A stretch of 64,000 bases of DNA from Thermococcus henrietii (GTDB lineage Archaea; Methanobacteriota_B; Thermococci; Thermococcales; Thermococcaceae). The DNA lies in contig NZ_LT900021.1 in NCBI RefSeq assembly GCF_900198835.1, positions 1,178,001 through 1,242,000 of the forward strand. Direction: 5' to 3'. Within the stretch, counting starts at the first letter, position 1; each line of letters opens with the position of its first letter. Of this stretch, positions 56,946 to 62,891 are shown in pieces. The notes under the pieces are model-generated. The model was not told where the DNA came from. It worked only from the letters and a program-made list of their open reading frames with translations, and made no database searches. The position numbers and the translations under genes were made by a program.

Positions 56946-56972
56946 CCAACCATTTGGTGGAGGAGTGTGACG

Positions 56973-57737
56973 ATGCTGAAATACCTCGGCTACTTCGCTG
57001 TCGGTGTCTTCATTGGAATCCTCGCGGCACTGTTCGGCCTCGGAGGGGGCTTCCTGATAGTGCCAACCCTCAACCTGCTCGGCGTCGAGATGCACCACGC
57101 GGTAGGAACTTCCAGCGCGGCGGTTGTTTTCACTTCGCTTAGCTCGGCTATTGCATACTCAAGGCAGAAGAGGATACACTACAAGGTCGGACTTCTGCTG
57201 GCTTCGACCGCCGTCATAGGCGCCTACATAGGGGCATGGCTCACATCGTTCATCAGCGCCTCCCAGCTGAAGGTCATCTTCGGGCTAGCGCTCATCGTTG
57301 TCGCCGTCAGGATATACAGGAAAAAGACTGCCGAGCCGAGCGAGGTCAAACTCGAGGACGTTAGGGTGAACTACAAGCTCGTTCCGGTCGGTGGATTCTT
57401 CGCGGGAATCGCGAGCGGTCTGCTCGGCGTTGGTGGCGGAATAATCAACGTGCCCTTCCTGACCTACCTCGGCCTGCCAATTCACTACGCCGTCGCAACC
57501 TCAAGCTTCGCGATTGTCTTCACCGCAACGGCAGGAGCTCTCAAGCACTACGCGATGGGCAACGTGGAGACGCAGTGGCTCGTCCTCCTCGTGCCGGGTC
57601 TAATACTGGGGGCGCAGGTAGGGGCCAGAATAGCCAAGAGAACGAAGGCGAGCAGTCTGAAAAAGGCCTTCGCCGTCGTGATGTTCCTCCTGGCCCTGAG
57701 GATGATTCTCAAGGGTCTCGGCTTCGCGGTTCCGTGA
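56973..57737 (+). CDS. TauE/SafE-family transporter, copy 1
   Basis: 254 residues with eight membrane helices in two repeats, each containing the G-rich G(V/L)GGGF(L/I)-type turn: LFGLGGGFLIVPTLNLLG and LLGVGGGIINVPFLTYLG. The family exports sulfite, sulfoacetate or taurine-derived anions. The start is ATG 56973 with GGAGGAG upstream; GTG 56967 is an alternative. Copy 2 follows 31 bases after the stop. Confidence 0.85.
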   Translation: MLKYLGYFAVGVFIGILAALFGLGGGFLIVPTLNLLGVEMHHAVGTSSAAVVFTSLSSAIAYSRQKRIHYKVGLLLASTAVIGAYIGAWLTSFISASQLKVIFGLALIVVAVRIYRKKTAEPSEVKLEDVRVNYKLVPVGGFFAGIASGLLGVGGGIINVPFLTYLGLPIHYAVATSSFAIVFTATAGALKHYAMGNVETQWLVLLVPGLILGAQVGARIAKRTKASSLKKAFAVVMFLLALRMILKGLGFAVP

Positions 57738-57768
57738 GGTTTTTAAGAGGCCCCCTTAACTTTTTCCC

Positions 57769-58521
57769 ATGAGCAATTACGCCCTCTACTTCGCCGTGGG
57801 TGTAACTGTTGGAATCGTTTCTGCCCTCTTCGGCTTAGGCGGTGGCTTCGTCCTCGTTCCGGTTCTCAACATCCTTGGCGTCAGCATTCACCAGGCCGTC
57901 GGGACTTCGAGCGCGGCAGTGGTCTTCACGGCCCTCAGCTCGACGATAGCCTACTCGAGAAGGGGAATGATTCACTACAAGACAGGCGTCCTGCTTTCGA
58001 TTCCTGCCATCATCGGAGCCTACCTTGGGGCTGTCATGACAACCTACGTGACCCCCGGTGAGCTCAAGGTAATCTTCGGTGTGACCCTCCTGTTCGTCGC
58101 TTACAGGATTTACACGAAGGAAACCGCGGAGCTGGGTGATTTGGCGGTTTCAGAGGTAAAAATTGACTATCGCCTCGTTCCAATCGGCGGGTTTTTCTCG
58201 GGGATTGCCAGCGGTCTCCTGGGGGTTGGTGGCGGAATAATCAACGTACCATTCCTCGTGTGGCTCGGCATGCCAATGCACTATGCCGTCGCGACTTCGA
58301 GCTTTGCCATAGTGTTCACCTCCGCGAGTAGCGCCCTCAAGCACTATATGCTGGGTAACGTTGAACTCCACTGGCTCGTCCTCCTCGTGCCCGGCCTGAT
58401 AATCGGGGCACAGCTCGGCGCGAGGCTCGCGGAGAGGGTTAAGGCGTCCTCCCTAAAGAGGGCCTTCGCGATTGTGATGGTAATCCTGGCTTTGAGGATG
58501 ATAGTGAGCGGTTTGAGGTGA
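57769..58521 (+). CDS. TauE/SafE-family transporter, copy 2
   Basis: 250 residues, a close paralogue of copy 1 (shared AVGTSSAAVVFT, SGLLGVGGGIINVPFL and YAVATSSFAIVFT). A TATA-like TTTTTAAG (57739-57746) places initiation at about 57768, so translation should be leaderless, and indeed no ribosome site precedes ATG 57769. Tandem duplication with separate promoters suggests different regulation. The 90-residue gene follows five bases later. Confidence 0.85.
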   Translation: MSNYALYFAVGVTVGIVSALFGLGGGFVLVPVLNILGVSIHQAVGTSSAAVVFTALSSTIAYSRRGMIHYKTGVLLSIPAIIGAYLGAVMTTYVTPGELKVIFGVTLLFVAYRIYTKETAELGDLAVSEVKIDYRLVPIGGFFSGIASGLLGVGGGIINVPFLVWLGMPMHYAVATSSFAIVFTSASSALKHYMLGNVELHWLVLLVPGLIIGAQLGARLAERVKASSLKRAFAIVMVILALRMIVSGLR

Positions 58522-58525
58522 TAAC

Positions 58526-58798
58526 ATGGAGGAGCTCGTCGAGAAGGTTCGCGAGAAGTTCGGCCTTGAGGTCAAAGACATGGCCGACGCTTGGAAGCTC
58601 GTTGAGTGGCTCGAGGAGAGAGAGTGGGTCGTTTACATCATAACCGCCAAAAACAGGAAGCAGGTCGATGCGTGGCACCCGCGCTACGGGACGCTGTTTG
58701 CCCAGTTCGGGGAGGTTCCGAACTTTGGGAGCATCTTTGAGGGCATCTTGACCGTTGCGCTCTTGGCCAAAGAGCTTGAGGAAAAAGGAACGATTTGA
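58526..58798 (+). CDS. Small conserved-looking protein, function unknown
   Basis: 90 residues, acidic and mainly helical with two aromatic strands (EWVVYIITAKNRKQVDAWHPRYGTLFAQFGEVPNFGSIFEGI). It has no signal peptide. GAGGTGAT lies seven bases before the ATG, which overlaps the tail of the transporter gene's spacing. Nothing identifies it; it is likely co-transcribed with transporter copy 2. Confidence 0.6.
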   Translation: MEELVEKVREKFGLEVKDMADAWKLVEWLEEREWVVYIITAKNRKQVDAWHPRYGTLFAQFGEVPNFGSIFEGILTVALLAKELEEKGTI

Positions 58799-58805
58799 AA
58801 CGCGC

Positions 58806-58823
58806 GTTCCACCGCGACCCTAA
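58806..58823 (+). promoter_or_regulatory. Shared promoter element of the repeated module, copy 1
   Basis: GTTCCACCGC-GA-CCCTAA. The same element with a different two-base spacer occurs at 60947-60964 before the second module copy, again about 50 bases before the start codon. In copy 1 it adjoins CCTAAAATATTC, a possible TATA box. It is a strong candidate for a common operator, perhaps bound by the membrane-anchored wHTH proteins encoded downstream (inference). Confidence 0.6.
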
Positions 58824-58853
58824 AATATTCGGGCCCCCAAGAGGGGGACGGTG

Positions 58854-60008
58854 ATGGCCGTGAGGAAGTTACTCGTGGTAATACTGACGGCCCTGCTCGT
58901 GGGGAGCGTGGTGCCCTTCGCCCTCGCGAGCGGGTCAGAGAACTCCACCACTGAGACAAACGAGGTTCCGCAGGAGAAGGTCGTCGCCCAGAAACTCATA
59001 GACAACCTCAAGAGGCTCGCCGAGGTCACCGAGGCGAAGGTTCCCGAGAACATGACGAACTCGACGTACCTAACCTTAGCAGAGGAACACTACAACAAAG
59101 CCCTGAGCGAGTTCCAGGCGGGGAACTACAACGCCTCCATGGTGGACGCGCTGATGGCGATGCACTACTACCGGCTCGTGCTGTCGGAGATTGGAGCACC
59201 GATGAAGGGAGCCGGTGCCAACGTGGAGGCCCAGTTCAGGGCTCAGGTCGAGAGAACCAGGGCTTACCTGCGCTACGCTGAGAGGCTCATCAACGTTGCC
59301 GGTGAGAAGGGACTAAACGTCACCGAGGCGAGGGAACTATACAACGAGACCCTTGAGGCGTTCAAGCTCGTAATGGAGGACGTACGCTCTGGAAACATGA
59401 CGAAGGCAAGGGAAGACTACGAGGTTGCCCTCCAGAAGAAGGCCGAGCTCGACTCCGCGTTGAAGGAACTGAGGCTCCAGATGCTCCACCAGAATGCGGA
59501 GCAAGTGGTTGAGCGCTTTCTCGTGAAGGGCGAGAGGGCAATCCAGCTCGCCAACAGGACCCTGAGCGAGAACCCGAACCCGGAGCTGAACGAGACCTAC
59601 ACCGCGTTCCTTGAGCTCTACACGAGCGTCAAGACCCTCGCGGACGAGGGCAGGTGGGACGAAGCCCTTAACCTCATAATCGAGAAGAGGGACGTGGTCA
59701 AGGAGTTCCAGATGACGCTCACAAGGGGAAGGACCATGGCAAGGGGCCACTTCAAGTGGGAAGGGAACTTCGAGAAGCTCAAGGAACTCCACGAGAGGAT
59801 AATCCACGACGGCAGGGAGCTCATGAAGCTCAAGCGCGAGGGCGTTGACGTCTCGAAGGCGGAAGTTCAGCTGAGGAGCGCAATGAACGAATACAAGCTC
59901 GGAATCCGCCTGCTCCGCACCGGACAGCCCGAGAAGGCGAAAGAACACTTCGAGGCCGCCGTCACCCTCCTGAAGGAGGTGGAAGCCTTCATCAACGCGC
60001 ACTCCTGA
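58854..60008 (+). CDS. Exported helical protein of the repeated module, copy 1
   Basis: 384 residues. A signal peptide (KLLVVILTALLVGSVVPFALA) is followed by long helices: a LAEEHYNKALSEFQAGNYNASMVDALMAMHYYRLVL segment (TPR-like, about residues 67-105), then coiled-coil-rich sequence with many Asn-x-Thr sites, ending with another TPR-like YKLGIRLLRTGQPEKAKEHFEAAV. No anchor at the C-terminus is seen, so it is secreted or held by the S-layer. It is followed 24 bases later by the membrane wHTH gene. It is related to 61000-61896. Confidence 0.7.
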   Translation: MAVRKLLVVILTALLVGSVVPFALASGSENSTTETNEVPQEKVVAQKLIDNLKRLAEVTEAKVPENMTNSTYLTLAEEHYNKALSEFQAGNYNASMVDALMAMHYYRLVLSEIGAPMKGAGANVEAQFRAQVERTRAYLRYAERLINVAGEKGLNVTEARELYNETLEAFKLVMEDVRSGNMTKAREDYEVALQKKAELDSALKELRLQMLHQNAEQVVERFLVKGERAIQLANRTLSENPNPELNETYTAFLELYTSVKTLADEGRWDEALNLIIEKRDVVKEFQMTLTRGRTMARGHFKWEGNFEKLKELHERIIHDGRELMKLKREGVDVSKAEVQLRSAMNEYKLGIRLLRTGQPEKAKEHFEAAVTLLKEVEAFINAHS

Positions 60009-60032
60009 CCCTTTCATTTTGGAGGTGGAGGA

Positions 60033-60866
60033 ATGAGAAGGCTTCGATGCACGGCGCTCGTCTTCGCACTGCTTCTGCTGGCTTCCCCGGTCCTCGCCCA
60101 GGAGACCGTAAAGCTCTTCGTTTACGAGGACGGTTACGTCAAGGTGGAAATTTCGATAGTGCCGAATAACTACACCGAACCGCTAATCGTGCCGGTTACC
60201 GAACACGCCCAAGACATCATCGTTGAGGACTCCCGGGGAAACCCCATCGATTTCCAGGAGACCAACGGGTCCCTTCTGATTTATCCCGGAAATGCTGAGC
60301 TCGTTAGGATTTCCTACTACACCCCCGACCTCACCTCCAAGAGGGGAATAGTCTGGACGGTTAACTTCTCCTCCGAGGTCCCCTTTGAGGTTGTCCTCCC
60401 CGATGGTGCCGTCATCGTTGATTTGAGCGATATCCCCCTTCGAATAAACGGAACCTCCATAACGATGCCTCCGGGCAACCAGAGCGTCTCCTACATCATT
60501 GAAAACCCCCCAACTGGCAAGAACCAGAAAAGCGGTGCCCCCGAAGTCCTCCTGGCCTTTGGCGGGGCTGTTCTTGTCGGAGGAGTGTTTTTCATATGGC
60601 GGAGGAACCGGTCCGGAAACGATGGCGGTGAGACCAAAGCTGACCCCATTGAAGAGGCCCTTGAAAGCGACGAGCTGAGGGAGGAGGAAAAGCTTGCGCT
60701 GAAGTACCTGCTGGAGCACGGCGGACGGGCCAGTCAGGCGGAGATAAGGGACGCGCTCGGCATTCCGAAGACAACCGCCTGGAGGATGTTCAAGCGCCTC
60801 GAGGAGAAGGGACTCGTGAGAATCATCCGGGGGAGGAAAGAGAACTGGGTGGAGTTGAAGCGTTAG
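60033..60866 (+). CDS. Membrane-anchored one-component wHTH regulator, copy 1
   Basis: 277 residues. Layout: signal peptide or first helix (about 1-22), a beta-rich outer domain (about 23-165) with a conserved end VIVDLSDIPL...GTSITMPPGNQSVSYI, a single membrane helix (EVLLAFGGAVLVGGVFFIW, about 170-189), a charged linker, then a cytoplasmic winged HTH (about 210-277, GRASQAEIRDALGIPKTTAWRMFKRLEEKGLVRIIRGRKENWVEL). This is a sensor with DNA-binding tail. GGAGGTGG precedes the ATG. Paralogue at 61908. Confidence 0.8.
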   Translation: MRRLRCTALVFALLLLASPVLAQETVKLFVYEDGYVKVEISIVPNNYTEPLIVPVTEHAQDIIVEDSRGNPIDFQETNGSLLIYPGNAELVRISYYTPDLTSKRGIVWTVNFSSEVPFEVVLPDGAVIVDLSDIPLRINGTSITMPPGNQSVSYIIENPPTGKNQKSGAPEVLLAFGGAVLVGGVFFIWRRNRSGNDGGETKADPIEEALESDELREEEKLALKYLLEHGGRASQAEIRDALGIPKTTAWRMFKRLEEKGLVRIIRGRKENWVELKR

Positions 60867-60946
60867 AGAAAACGTTATATCCCCCTCGCCCCTAATTCTA
60901 TCCGCCTGAAATCGAAAGGAACTTGCGGAAACGTTTTAAGTCCTTT

Positions 60947-60991
60947 GTTCCACCGCTTCCCTAATTAGGGATGAGCCGTAACTTAAAGCGG
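60947..60991 (+). promoter_or_regulatory. Shared promoter element copy 2, palindrome and leader hairpin
   Basis: GTTCCACCGC-TT-CCCTAA (60947-60964) repeats the element of copy 1. It merges with the perfect palindrome CCCTAATTAGGG (60959-60970). CCGCTT (60953-60958) is also complementary to AAGCGG (60986-60991), whose last bases enter the ribosome site GGTGAT of the next gene. So both a DNA operator and a masking leader hairpin are possible here. TATA candidate CGTTTTAAG lies at 60932-60940. Confidence 0.55.
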
Positions 60992-60999
60992 TGATAATT

Positions 61000-61896
61000 G
61001 TGAGGAGAATCGCGTTCATGATTATCGGAATACTGCTCGTCTCACTTGTCCCGGCAGTCGGCGGGGTTAGTTCCGAGACCGTCTCGGCATCAACGAGAGC
61101 AAACGGACTGCTCCTTGCACTGGACCGGCTCGCCAACTACACCCATTCCGTCAACTGCACCTCCGAGCAGGCTGATGCCCTTCGCGAAAAGGCCTGGGAG
61201 CTGTACAGGGCAGGGAACTACAACGAGAGTGCCGAGGAAGCGCTTAGGGCAATGGACCTGTACCGCTCCGCGCTCGAATACTGCAAAACAGCGGGGGAGG
61301 AGAACATGACGCAGGACTGGGTCTCGGTCGCTGAGACTGAGCTGGCAATCACAGCGAACGTCCTTGAGTATGCCAAGAAACTCATCGATTCGGGAGAACT
61401 CAGCGGAAGGGACCTTGAGAGTGTTGAGGTCGAGTACAACCAAACACTCAAGGTGTACGAGGGGCTTAAGGAGAGCCTCGCTGAGAACGATACTCAGGAC
61501 CTTCCCCACAAGGTGGCTTTCCTGCGTACATCCCGGGAAGGGCTTGAACGGGCAATCAAACTTGCCGTGGGGGATTCCCTCAGGAAAACCGCCCCAAAGA
61601 TGGCTGAAATCCAGCTCCGTATGCTCGACGAGCTCGTTGAACGTGGCAGGTTAAATGAAACGGAGGCAATAACACTAAAAGAGCAGATTCTGGAGGCTAT
61701 TCAGACTGGGAATTCCGGTGAGGTTTTAAAGGTCCTGCGGGACGTGGATAAGGTTCTCTCAAAGACCCTCAGGGGACACAGGCGCGGAAAGAAAGAGAAG
61801 CCTCATCCGGAGGTCTCTCCCAACAACCAGACGAGTTCGGGGATGACCCAAACTCCCGAGAAGAACGAGACCAGCACCCACCGCGGCAGGGGATAG
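61000..61896 (+). CDS. Exported helical protein of the repeated module, copy 2
   Basis: 298 residues starting with GTG 61000 (a GTG nine bases earlier is possible). Signal peptide (RRIAFMIIGILLVSLVPAVGG), then the TPR-like LREKAWELYRAGNYNESAEEALRAMDLYRSALEYC (about residues 60-95), which matches copy 1, and coiled-coil sequence; it ends in a charged, Ser/Thr-rich tail. Two cysteines near the N-terminal repeat differ from copy 1. Function unknown; paired with the wHTH gene 11 bases downstream. Confidence 0.7.
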   Translation: MRRIAFMIIGILLVSLVPAVGGVSSETVSASTRANGLLLALDRLANYTHSVNCTSEQADALREKAWELYRAGNYNESAEEALRAMDLYRSALEYCKTAGEENMTQDWVSVAETELAITANVLEYAKKLIDSGELSGRDLESVEVEYNQTLKVYEGLKESLAENDTQDLPHKVAFLRTSREGLERAIKLAVGDSLRKTAPKMAEIQLRMLDELVERGRLNETEAITLKEQILEAIQTGNSGEVLKVLRDVDKVLSKTLRGHRRGKKEKPHPEVSPNNQTSSGMTQTPEKNETSTHRGRG

Positions 61897-61907
61897 GGGT
61901 GAAGCCG

Positions 61908-62891
61908 GTGAAAAGGTGCCCGATGCTTTTGATTGTGGTTCTCCTGCTCGCCCCTCACGTGGCTGCCCAATCAATAAAATCGGTTGAAGTTTCAGTCTAC
62001 ACAAGCGGTTACGCTAAGGTTACCGAAGTTCTCACCCCTCCAAACTACTCCGTGGCCGTCGAGGTGCCCCTTCTAAGCGAGAACGTTACAGGCCTCTCCG
62101 TTCTGGACGAGAACGGAAAACCGCTCCTCTTTGAGAAGAACGGGAGCGTTCTAACGGTTTACGTCCTCAACTCAACCACCCGGATAACCGTTACCTACTT
62201 CACCGACTCCCTGACTTCAAAGGAGGGAAAGGTCTGGAACCTGACCTACAGCTTCCCGTACCCCGTTACAATCAAGCTCCCGCCCGGTGCCGTTGTTGTT
62301 GATTTGAGCGACGTTCCCCTCACGATAACCTCGAACTCGATAACGATGCCCCCGGGCAACCAGAGCGTCTCCTACATTCTCCCGCCCCCGACGACATCAA
62401 CGACGTCATCCCCCTCGCCCACTCAAACACCCACCACGACCACCACGTCGAGCACGTCATCAACGTCCCCGAGCACGACCTCAAGCACATCCTCACCAGT
62501 AGCAACTCCCTCAACGAGCACCACCCCCAGCGAGCCGAGCACTCCCGCGTCCTCCGGCGGAAGGAACATGCTCCCGATAATCGGCTTCCTGGCGGTCGTG
62601 GGCATTCCCGCGGTTGCATACTGGGCGAGGAACAGGAAACACCCGGGAGGTCTTCCAATCTCAAAGGACGAGCTCAAGGAAAAGCTTGAAGCGATGGGTC
62701 TTACCGACGAGGAAATCAACGCGCTCCTCTACGTCTACGACCAGGGCGGAAAGGCCAAGCAGGCCGACGTCAGGAAGGCACTCGGGATTCCGAAGACGAC
62801 TGCCTGGAGGATGTTCAAGCGCCTCGAGGAGAGGGGCCTCGTGCGTGTCTATAAGAGGGGGAAGGAGAACTGGGTGGAGCTGGTACTTTAA
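61908..62891 (+). CDS. Membrane-anchored one-component wHTH regulator, copy 2
   Basis: 327 residues from GTG 61908, preceded at six bases by GGGGTG; GTG 61899 overlaps that site. Same design as 60033-60866: signal peptide, beta-rich outer domain with VVVDLSDVPL and SITMPPGNQSVSYI, then a Thr/Ser/Pro stalk of about 60 residues absent from copy 1, one membrane helix (MLPIIGFLAVVGIPAVAYWA) and a cytoplasmic wHTH (KAKQADVRKALGIPKTTAWRMFKRLEERGLV) nearly identical to copy 1. The stalk is a likely O-glycosylated spacer. Confidence 0.8.
   Translation: MKRCPMLLIVVLLLAPHVAAQSIKSVEVSVYTSGYAKVTEVLTPPNYSVAVEVPLLSENVTGLSVLDENGKPLLFEKNGSVLTVYVLNSTTRITVTYFTDSLTSKEGKVWNLTYSFPYPVTIKLPPGAVVVDLSDVPLTITSNSITMPPGNQSVSYILPPPTTSTTSSPSPTQTPTTTTTSSTSSTSPSTTSSTSSPVATPSTSTTPSEPSTPASSGGRNMLPIIGFLAVVGIPAVAYWARNRKHPGGLPISKDELKEKLEAMGLTDEEINALLYVYDQGGKAKQADVRKALGIPKTTAWRMFKRLEERGLVRVYKRGKENWVELVL

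Follow-up and report, generated by a model that had tools for sequence, protein, structure and literature searches.

The window considered here, a stretch of 64,000 nucleotides of the Thermococcus henrietii contig NZ_LT900021.1 (positions 1,178,001 to 1,242,000), carries two successive two-gene modules, A and B, on its forward strand. In promoter A two half-sites, GGAACG (58787..58792) and GAAACG (58797..58802), assigned from the sequence and from the offset clusters dealt with below, lie at -20 and -10 from a core, GTTCCACCGC-GA-CCCTAAAATA (58806..58827). This core, delineated by motif searches and its distance to the ribosome site, takes in an inverted half-site GTTCC, a CACCGC box, a poor BRE and the TATA box CTAAAATA (58820-58827). 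The ribosome site, GGTGAT (58850..58855; consensus GGDGRD quoted in PMC4247193), is followed by gene 1 (58860..60008, likely with a GTG start) and gene 2 (60033..60866). Promoter B has its half-sites, GGAAC (60918..60922) and GAAACG (60928..60933), at -30 and -20 from a core, GTTCCACCGC-TT-CCCTAATTAG (60947..60968), that was recognised by motif search and upstream comparison and includes a poor TATA box (TAATTAG). There too the ribosome site, as read from the sequence, is GGTGAT (60990..60995), and it precedes a gene 1 (61000..61896, again with a likely GTG start) whose secreted product is a relative of its module A counterpart by homology searches, and a gene 2 (61899..62891) for a membrane-anchored winged-HTH protein. 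Upstream of promoter B, GAGAAAACGTTATATCCCCCTCGCCCCTAATTC at 60869-60906 resembles a second, degenerate copy of this kind of element, and two tandem genes for TauE/SafE-type exporters (56967-58521) lie upstream of the modules.

The gene 1 product of module A, whose N-terminus resembles a signal sequence, appears to be secreted; it matches TPR_2, and its model consists of helices only (mean pLDDT 77.5, pTM 0.44), with no match at E 0.001 or better in a fold search. For the gene 2 product of module A, domain matches, alignment, model (mean pLDDT 82.1, pTM 0.50) and fold comparison together predict a signal-like helix, a beta-sandwich, one membrane helix (172-191) followed by arginines (WRRNR), and a C-terminal winged HTH. 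A sequence search of the PDB with it found no match up to E 0.1. Its winged HTH is above the Pfam cut-offs for HTH_24, TrmB (PF01978), MarR_2 and DUF7343, and aligns with MarR proteins (Z about 10). In members of the TrmB family a C-terminal effector (sugar-binding) domain stands beside the TrmB HTH; unlike them, gene 2 has its HTH at the C-terminus and no effector domain among the matches. The predicted outer beta-sandwich (residues 22-168, from the model of pTM 0.50) resembles Ost1/ribophorin I, the fold match being labelled as a subunit of the eukaryotic oligosaccharyltransferase, with Z 12.8 over 147 residues, rmsd 2.8 and 16% identity, and it also aligns with the N-terminal domains of M1- and M61-kind peptidases (Z 9-11). 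On the models, both likenesses are of fold only, and a shared fold shows no function. Relatives of gene 2 are present in 93 of the 94 family genomes (with the winged HTH in 88), those of type A gene 1 in at least 84 and those of type B gene 1 in 72.

The preliminary description had singled out the sequence GTTCCACCGC-NN-CCCTAA, and its two exact plus-strand copies, at 58806-58823 and 60947-60964, are indeed there and are the sole exact ones in the whole genome (2,155,760 bases), which has besides them two places with 2 mismatches. No further match at up to 3 mismatches was found within the 64-kb window. As shuffling the window 100 times also gave at least two matches at up to 3 mismatches in 13 cases, the weight of the repeat lies in its exactness and its position, the distance from the end of the element to the likely GTG start being 36 nt in both copies (58823 to 58860; 60964 to 61000). 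That the surrounding DNA is unrelated holds for flanks compared in register (17/60 bases identical before the element, 7/32 after), but it overlooks the shifted GRAAC pair: with a 10-nt shift, 16 of the 30 bases preceding the element are identical between the copies, and the pair, at its 10-bp spacing, is moved by one helical turn from copy A to copy B. The 16 fixed bases are real, but the actual element is larger than was described, and judged from its relatives they are the promoter-proximal part of a composite. The palindrome CCCTAATTAGGG reported at the second copy is likewise present (60959-60970, without strand), but as a functional part, or as an operator, it fares poorly; it occurs in 4 of 140 upstream sequences, other B promoters reading TAATGTA, TAATATA or TCATATA there, and it is lineage-specific, not a conserved part of the element.

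These 140 sequences, taken upstream of gene 1 in 83 of the 94 family genomes (some weak gene-1 matches being left out), have a composite architecture that can be read directly from the DNA: GRAACG-N4-GRAACG, a phased spacer, then GTTYCRCCG-NN-TYCCTMAWATA (also written TYCCTAAAATA), the 3′ end being a TATA box behind a poor BRE. The link of the element to the module, and its conservation between species, both anticipated at the outset, are borne out in all six Thermococcaceae genera of the genome set, and among 42 distinct 41-mers at gene-1 promoters 16 of the 41 columns are invariant. A core score of 12 or more is attained by 125 of the 140 real upstream sequences and by none of 140 first-order resampled ones, a figure that describes and does not test, the score having been trained on these same promoters (the position weight matrix and the composite pattern alike derive from module promoters). 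By eye, 12 of the 15 sequences scoring below 12 have a weaker or differently spaced element and three have none in the stretch taken: those of the second module of G080, of contig 54 of G054, and of G077 b, which has a variant about 525 nt upstream of the start of the match. Upstream of gene 1 at 58777 of G080:C1 (L174), comparison with G074 and G077 suggests the loss of some 20 bp, including core and TATA box, which makes this a natural test case.

The distance from the start of the core to the ribosome site has a median of 43 nt (interquartile range 43-44, n=132). For T. kodakarensis, PMC4247193 gives a distance of about 23 bp from TATA box to transcription start and a median leader of 16 nt, and the distance found here fits a transcription start that would lie a few bases ahead of the ribosome site. 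In promoter A the BRE position before CTAAAATA reads CGACC, poor against VRAAA, the consensus quoted in PMC5937170. Weakness of the BRE before the TATA box is clear in promoter A and less so in promoter B, where the TATA box is itself poor and upstream GGAAACGTTTTAAG could serve as BRE/TATA instead.

The spacing of the half-sites was counted in the 125 upstream sequences with a core score of at least 12, the other 15 being left out. Offsets of -20/-10 from the core are found in 68 promoters, -32/-22/-12 in 19, -31/-21 in 11 and -30/-20 in 6; a single GRAAC at -22 or -21 is present in 9, and the remaining 12 are spread over nine rarer kinds of arrangement, one of them without a half-site. Among 158 GRAAC pairs, 131 are spaced by 10 bp and 20 by 20 bp, counts that are inflated by close relatives (the composite amounts to 47 distinct 41-mers); farther upstream GRAAC occurs 93 times in 36,242 positions. 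The half-sites thus stand 10 bp apart, and between promoter classes they shift by about one helical turn, as they do between promoters A and B.

Specificity comes from the composite and not from the 18-mer, since the latter, at up to 2 mismatches in the 94 genomes, is hardly above its control (123 matches against 92) and so is a poor marker on its own. An exact copy in G072 is antisense inside a coding frame, and in G071 a copy with one mismatch overlaps the beginning of a frame on the reverse strand; both are without TATA box or half-sites and are taken as chance. The 41-bp composite is found at 69 places in 59 of the 94 genomes and, with the pattern reversed, at none, though the pattern was drawn from module promoters and favours them, a bias that the reversed control leaves in place. 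Sixty-three of the 69 are in the collected gene-1 upstream sequences and two, by coordinates, precede broken copies of gene 1 (G083, G084). The other four are before a 123-aa ORF and a gene for a PMT_2-like membrane protein, both in G002, and before genes for LamG-like proteins, one in G064 and one, identified by likeness, in G009. The core alone occurs at 68 places in 51 of the 94 genomes against 3 for the control, 68 being an undercount because the pattern had TCCY where TYCC is right. Coordinates read by eye place 10 of the 68 away from module promoters: four before DUF257 genes (G074, G075, G077, G079), one before the 123-aa ORF of G002, one in G023 and four in a single intergenic context (G030, G039, G044, G061). 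In the latter, the core TTTCACCGAGTCCCTTAAATA (L238, L240, L243, L251) stands before a small hairpin, without half-sites. At the DUF257 loci (L299-L302, in G075, G079, G077 and G074 respectively) the gene is divergent from that of an AAA ATPase, and the core is accompanied by GRAAC-like half-sites. Across this genome and its relatives the element is nearly confined to such modules, but a few other genes carry it too.

Within the T. henrietii genome, the core at up to 3 mismatches gives 16 matches, as does its reversed control, with no further target above control; neither of the two inspected (L336, L339) among the 14 outside the modules is convincing. For the pair GRAAC-N5-GRAAC, with Y ahead of the second half-site, there are 19 matches against 7 in the control, though by eye a core follows the pair only at promoter A, and the pairs were set aside as pointers to further targets. 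One of them, GGAAC-N5-GGAAC at G000:C1:2056098-2056112 (L221, outside the window), has no core and lies upstream of a gene for a 386-aa secreted protein with a helical tail, which resembles the S-layer type.

As candidate binder, the gene 2 protein of the module itself comes into consideration. Its recognition helix, PKTTAWRMF, is identical in all 14 aligned gene-2 proteins, including both copies in the window, which are 43% identical overall. Of 94 distinct HTH tails 81 carry it, and among the remaining 13 one is truncated. The 14 gene-2 paralogues whose helix instead has WRMV, WRMI or WRIL (in G004-G009 and G011) have no element upstream, and in the twelve of their upstream stretches scanned for it the GRAAC-N5-GRAAC pair is absent too. 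In the same genomes the WRMF-bearing first copies of G005 and G007 do have the element, as does, in weaker form, that of G011. The correspondence has exceptions, in that the element is missing before two WRMF copies of G012, and two helix variants, in G068 (WRIF) and G001 (PRTTAWRMF), keep it; the module promoters of G080 (second module) and G054 (contig 54), without an element in the stretch taken, also count against binding by gene 2. The paralogues with a changed helix belong to one genus (g3) and to other subfamilies, so that descent may explain the pattern.

A further consideration is that 11 genomes (G007, G011, G074, G075, G077-G081, G083, G084) contain a module with a gene 2 devoid of the winged HTH, and all 11 such modules keep strong composites (scores 61-71), and must therefore be served in trans. 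A gene 2 with the winged HTH is present in 58 of the 59 composite-bearing genomes, the exception, G081, being 79% complete; among 74 good genomes only G073 and G076 are without it, and both are also without the composite. This co-occurrence says little, given that 88 of the 94 genomes have the domain. That one regulator acts on both copies, as first proposed, is likely, since differing types of module within a genome, including the 11 without winged HTH, share the same kind of element.

Both the kind of promoter and the kind of protein have precedents. In the TFB-RF1 (PF1088) promoters of Thermococcales, the regulator site is just upstream of a weak BRE and TATA box, is conserved throughout that order, and the activator recruits TFB (PMC5937170). 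The position is like that found here, whereas the TFB-RF1 site is the palindrome TCTGAANTTCAGA, absent by eye from both 150-nt upstream sequences, in place of tandem GRAACG plus GTTYCRCCG. EarA acts at archaellum operon promoters, where one to three short motifs stand side by side ahead of a weak BRE, at a set distance from it, and TFB recruitment is likewise proposed for it (PMC10665913). Adjacent motif copies at fixed distance, moved by one window between groups, are a shared trait, whereas the EarA motif, A(C/G)(C/G)TACA(T/C), and its gene set are different, and by eye neither 150-nt upstream sequence has TACA. ArnR and ArnR1 of Sulfolobus acidocaldarius are membrane-bound one-component HTH activators at two cis elements (PMC6396743). 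Gene 2 is predicted to share the membrane-bound one-component organization, but theirs is an N-terminal HTH with two C-terminal transmembrane helices, in contrast to a C-terminal winged HTH, one transmembrane helix and an outer beta-sandwich. Their boxes are inverted repeats, TCGAC-N5-GTCGA, and TCGAC is in neither 150-nt upstream sequence by eye. Transmembrane transcription regulators are reported as enriched in Thermococci, with no operator or target named for the thermococcal ones in the excerpted part of that report (PMC10269533), and gene 2, with a DNA-binding domain and a predicted transmembrane helix in one polypeptide, has the makings of such a regulator.

The reading we favour, with a confidence that stands about level, is of an activator-dependent promoter bound by the module's gene-2 protein, a predicted transmembrane one-component regulator. 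Two direct GRAACG half-sites, 10 bp or about one helical turn apart, stand at a fixed phase upstream of GTTYCRCCG, itself made up of an inverted third half-site and a specific box and abutting the poor BRE and TATA box. The winged-helix domain of gene 2 would bind the half-sites, so that several domains would line up along the same side of the helix next to the poor BRE and recruit TFB there; we infer this recruitment because the sites are upstream of a poor BRE, in the layout of TFB-RF1 promoters. Gene 2 would in this way switch on its own operon, paralogous operons and a few other genes. Either the envelope or the secreted product of gene 1 could be what its outer beta-sandwich senses, and the combination of an outer domain with a co-transcribed secreted protein suggests envelope sensing.

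Alternatively, a soluble, unlinked transcription factor could have the composite as its operator, with the membrane winged-HTH operons only its main targets. The presence of the element before genes without a winged HTH (PMT_2-like, LamG-like, the 123-aa ORF and DUF257) and before modules that lack the HTH would suit such a factor, and the gene-2 domain matches the TrmB/MarR families generally; however, 65 of the 69 composites are on the module, and the absence of the element from paralogues with a changed helix, also within the same genomes, speaks against it, so that this proposal seems to us unlikely, if worth keeping in mind. Less probable again is that the gene-2 domain sits on the composite as a repressor, keeping its own operons silent until released by a signal. 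Autorepression is common among one-component systems, and the inverted half-site touches the BRE region, but half-sites upstream of a poor BRE at a fixed helical phase are the layout of TFB-RF1 and EarA promoters, which argues against repression. That the repeat is a chance match, or a leftover of duplication of the module, could draw on the paralogy of the two modules and on a first-order resampling of pairs of 150-nt upstream sequences, in which 3 of 4000 trials gave 16 of 18 matching columns, no equal distance from the start being required. Its conservation across six genera, in diverged promoters with flanks otherwise unrelated, refutes that notion, to which we attach next to no credence.

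Extended to the whole family, the activator reading becomes that of a Thermococcaceae envelope-sensing regulon, in which transmembrane one-component regulators with an Ost1/ribophorin-I-like outer domain, bound at phased GRAACG sites, would switch on their own operons, paralogous ones in trans (including copies without a DNA-binding domain) and a few co-opted genes, several of them for surface proteins. This wider version we hold tentatively, at somewhat short of an even chance. Transmembrane one-component regulators and activator sites beside weak BREs are kinds already known; the operator, its phasing and the regulon were recognised in none of the open-licence papers searched, nor was any paper on the motif or the gene-2 family. 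Operators are known for few of the activators of archaea, and archaeal sensing of the state of the envelope is poorly understood. If true, the proposal would define an operator precisely, strict helical phasing included, and would add to it a candidate transmembrane regulator and a small regulon, as predicted; the family includes laboratory species amenable to genetics.
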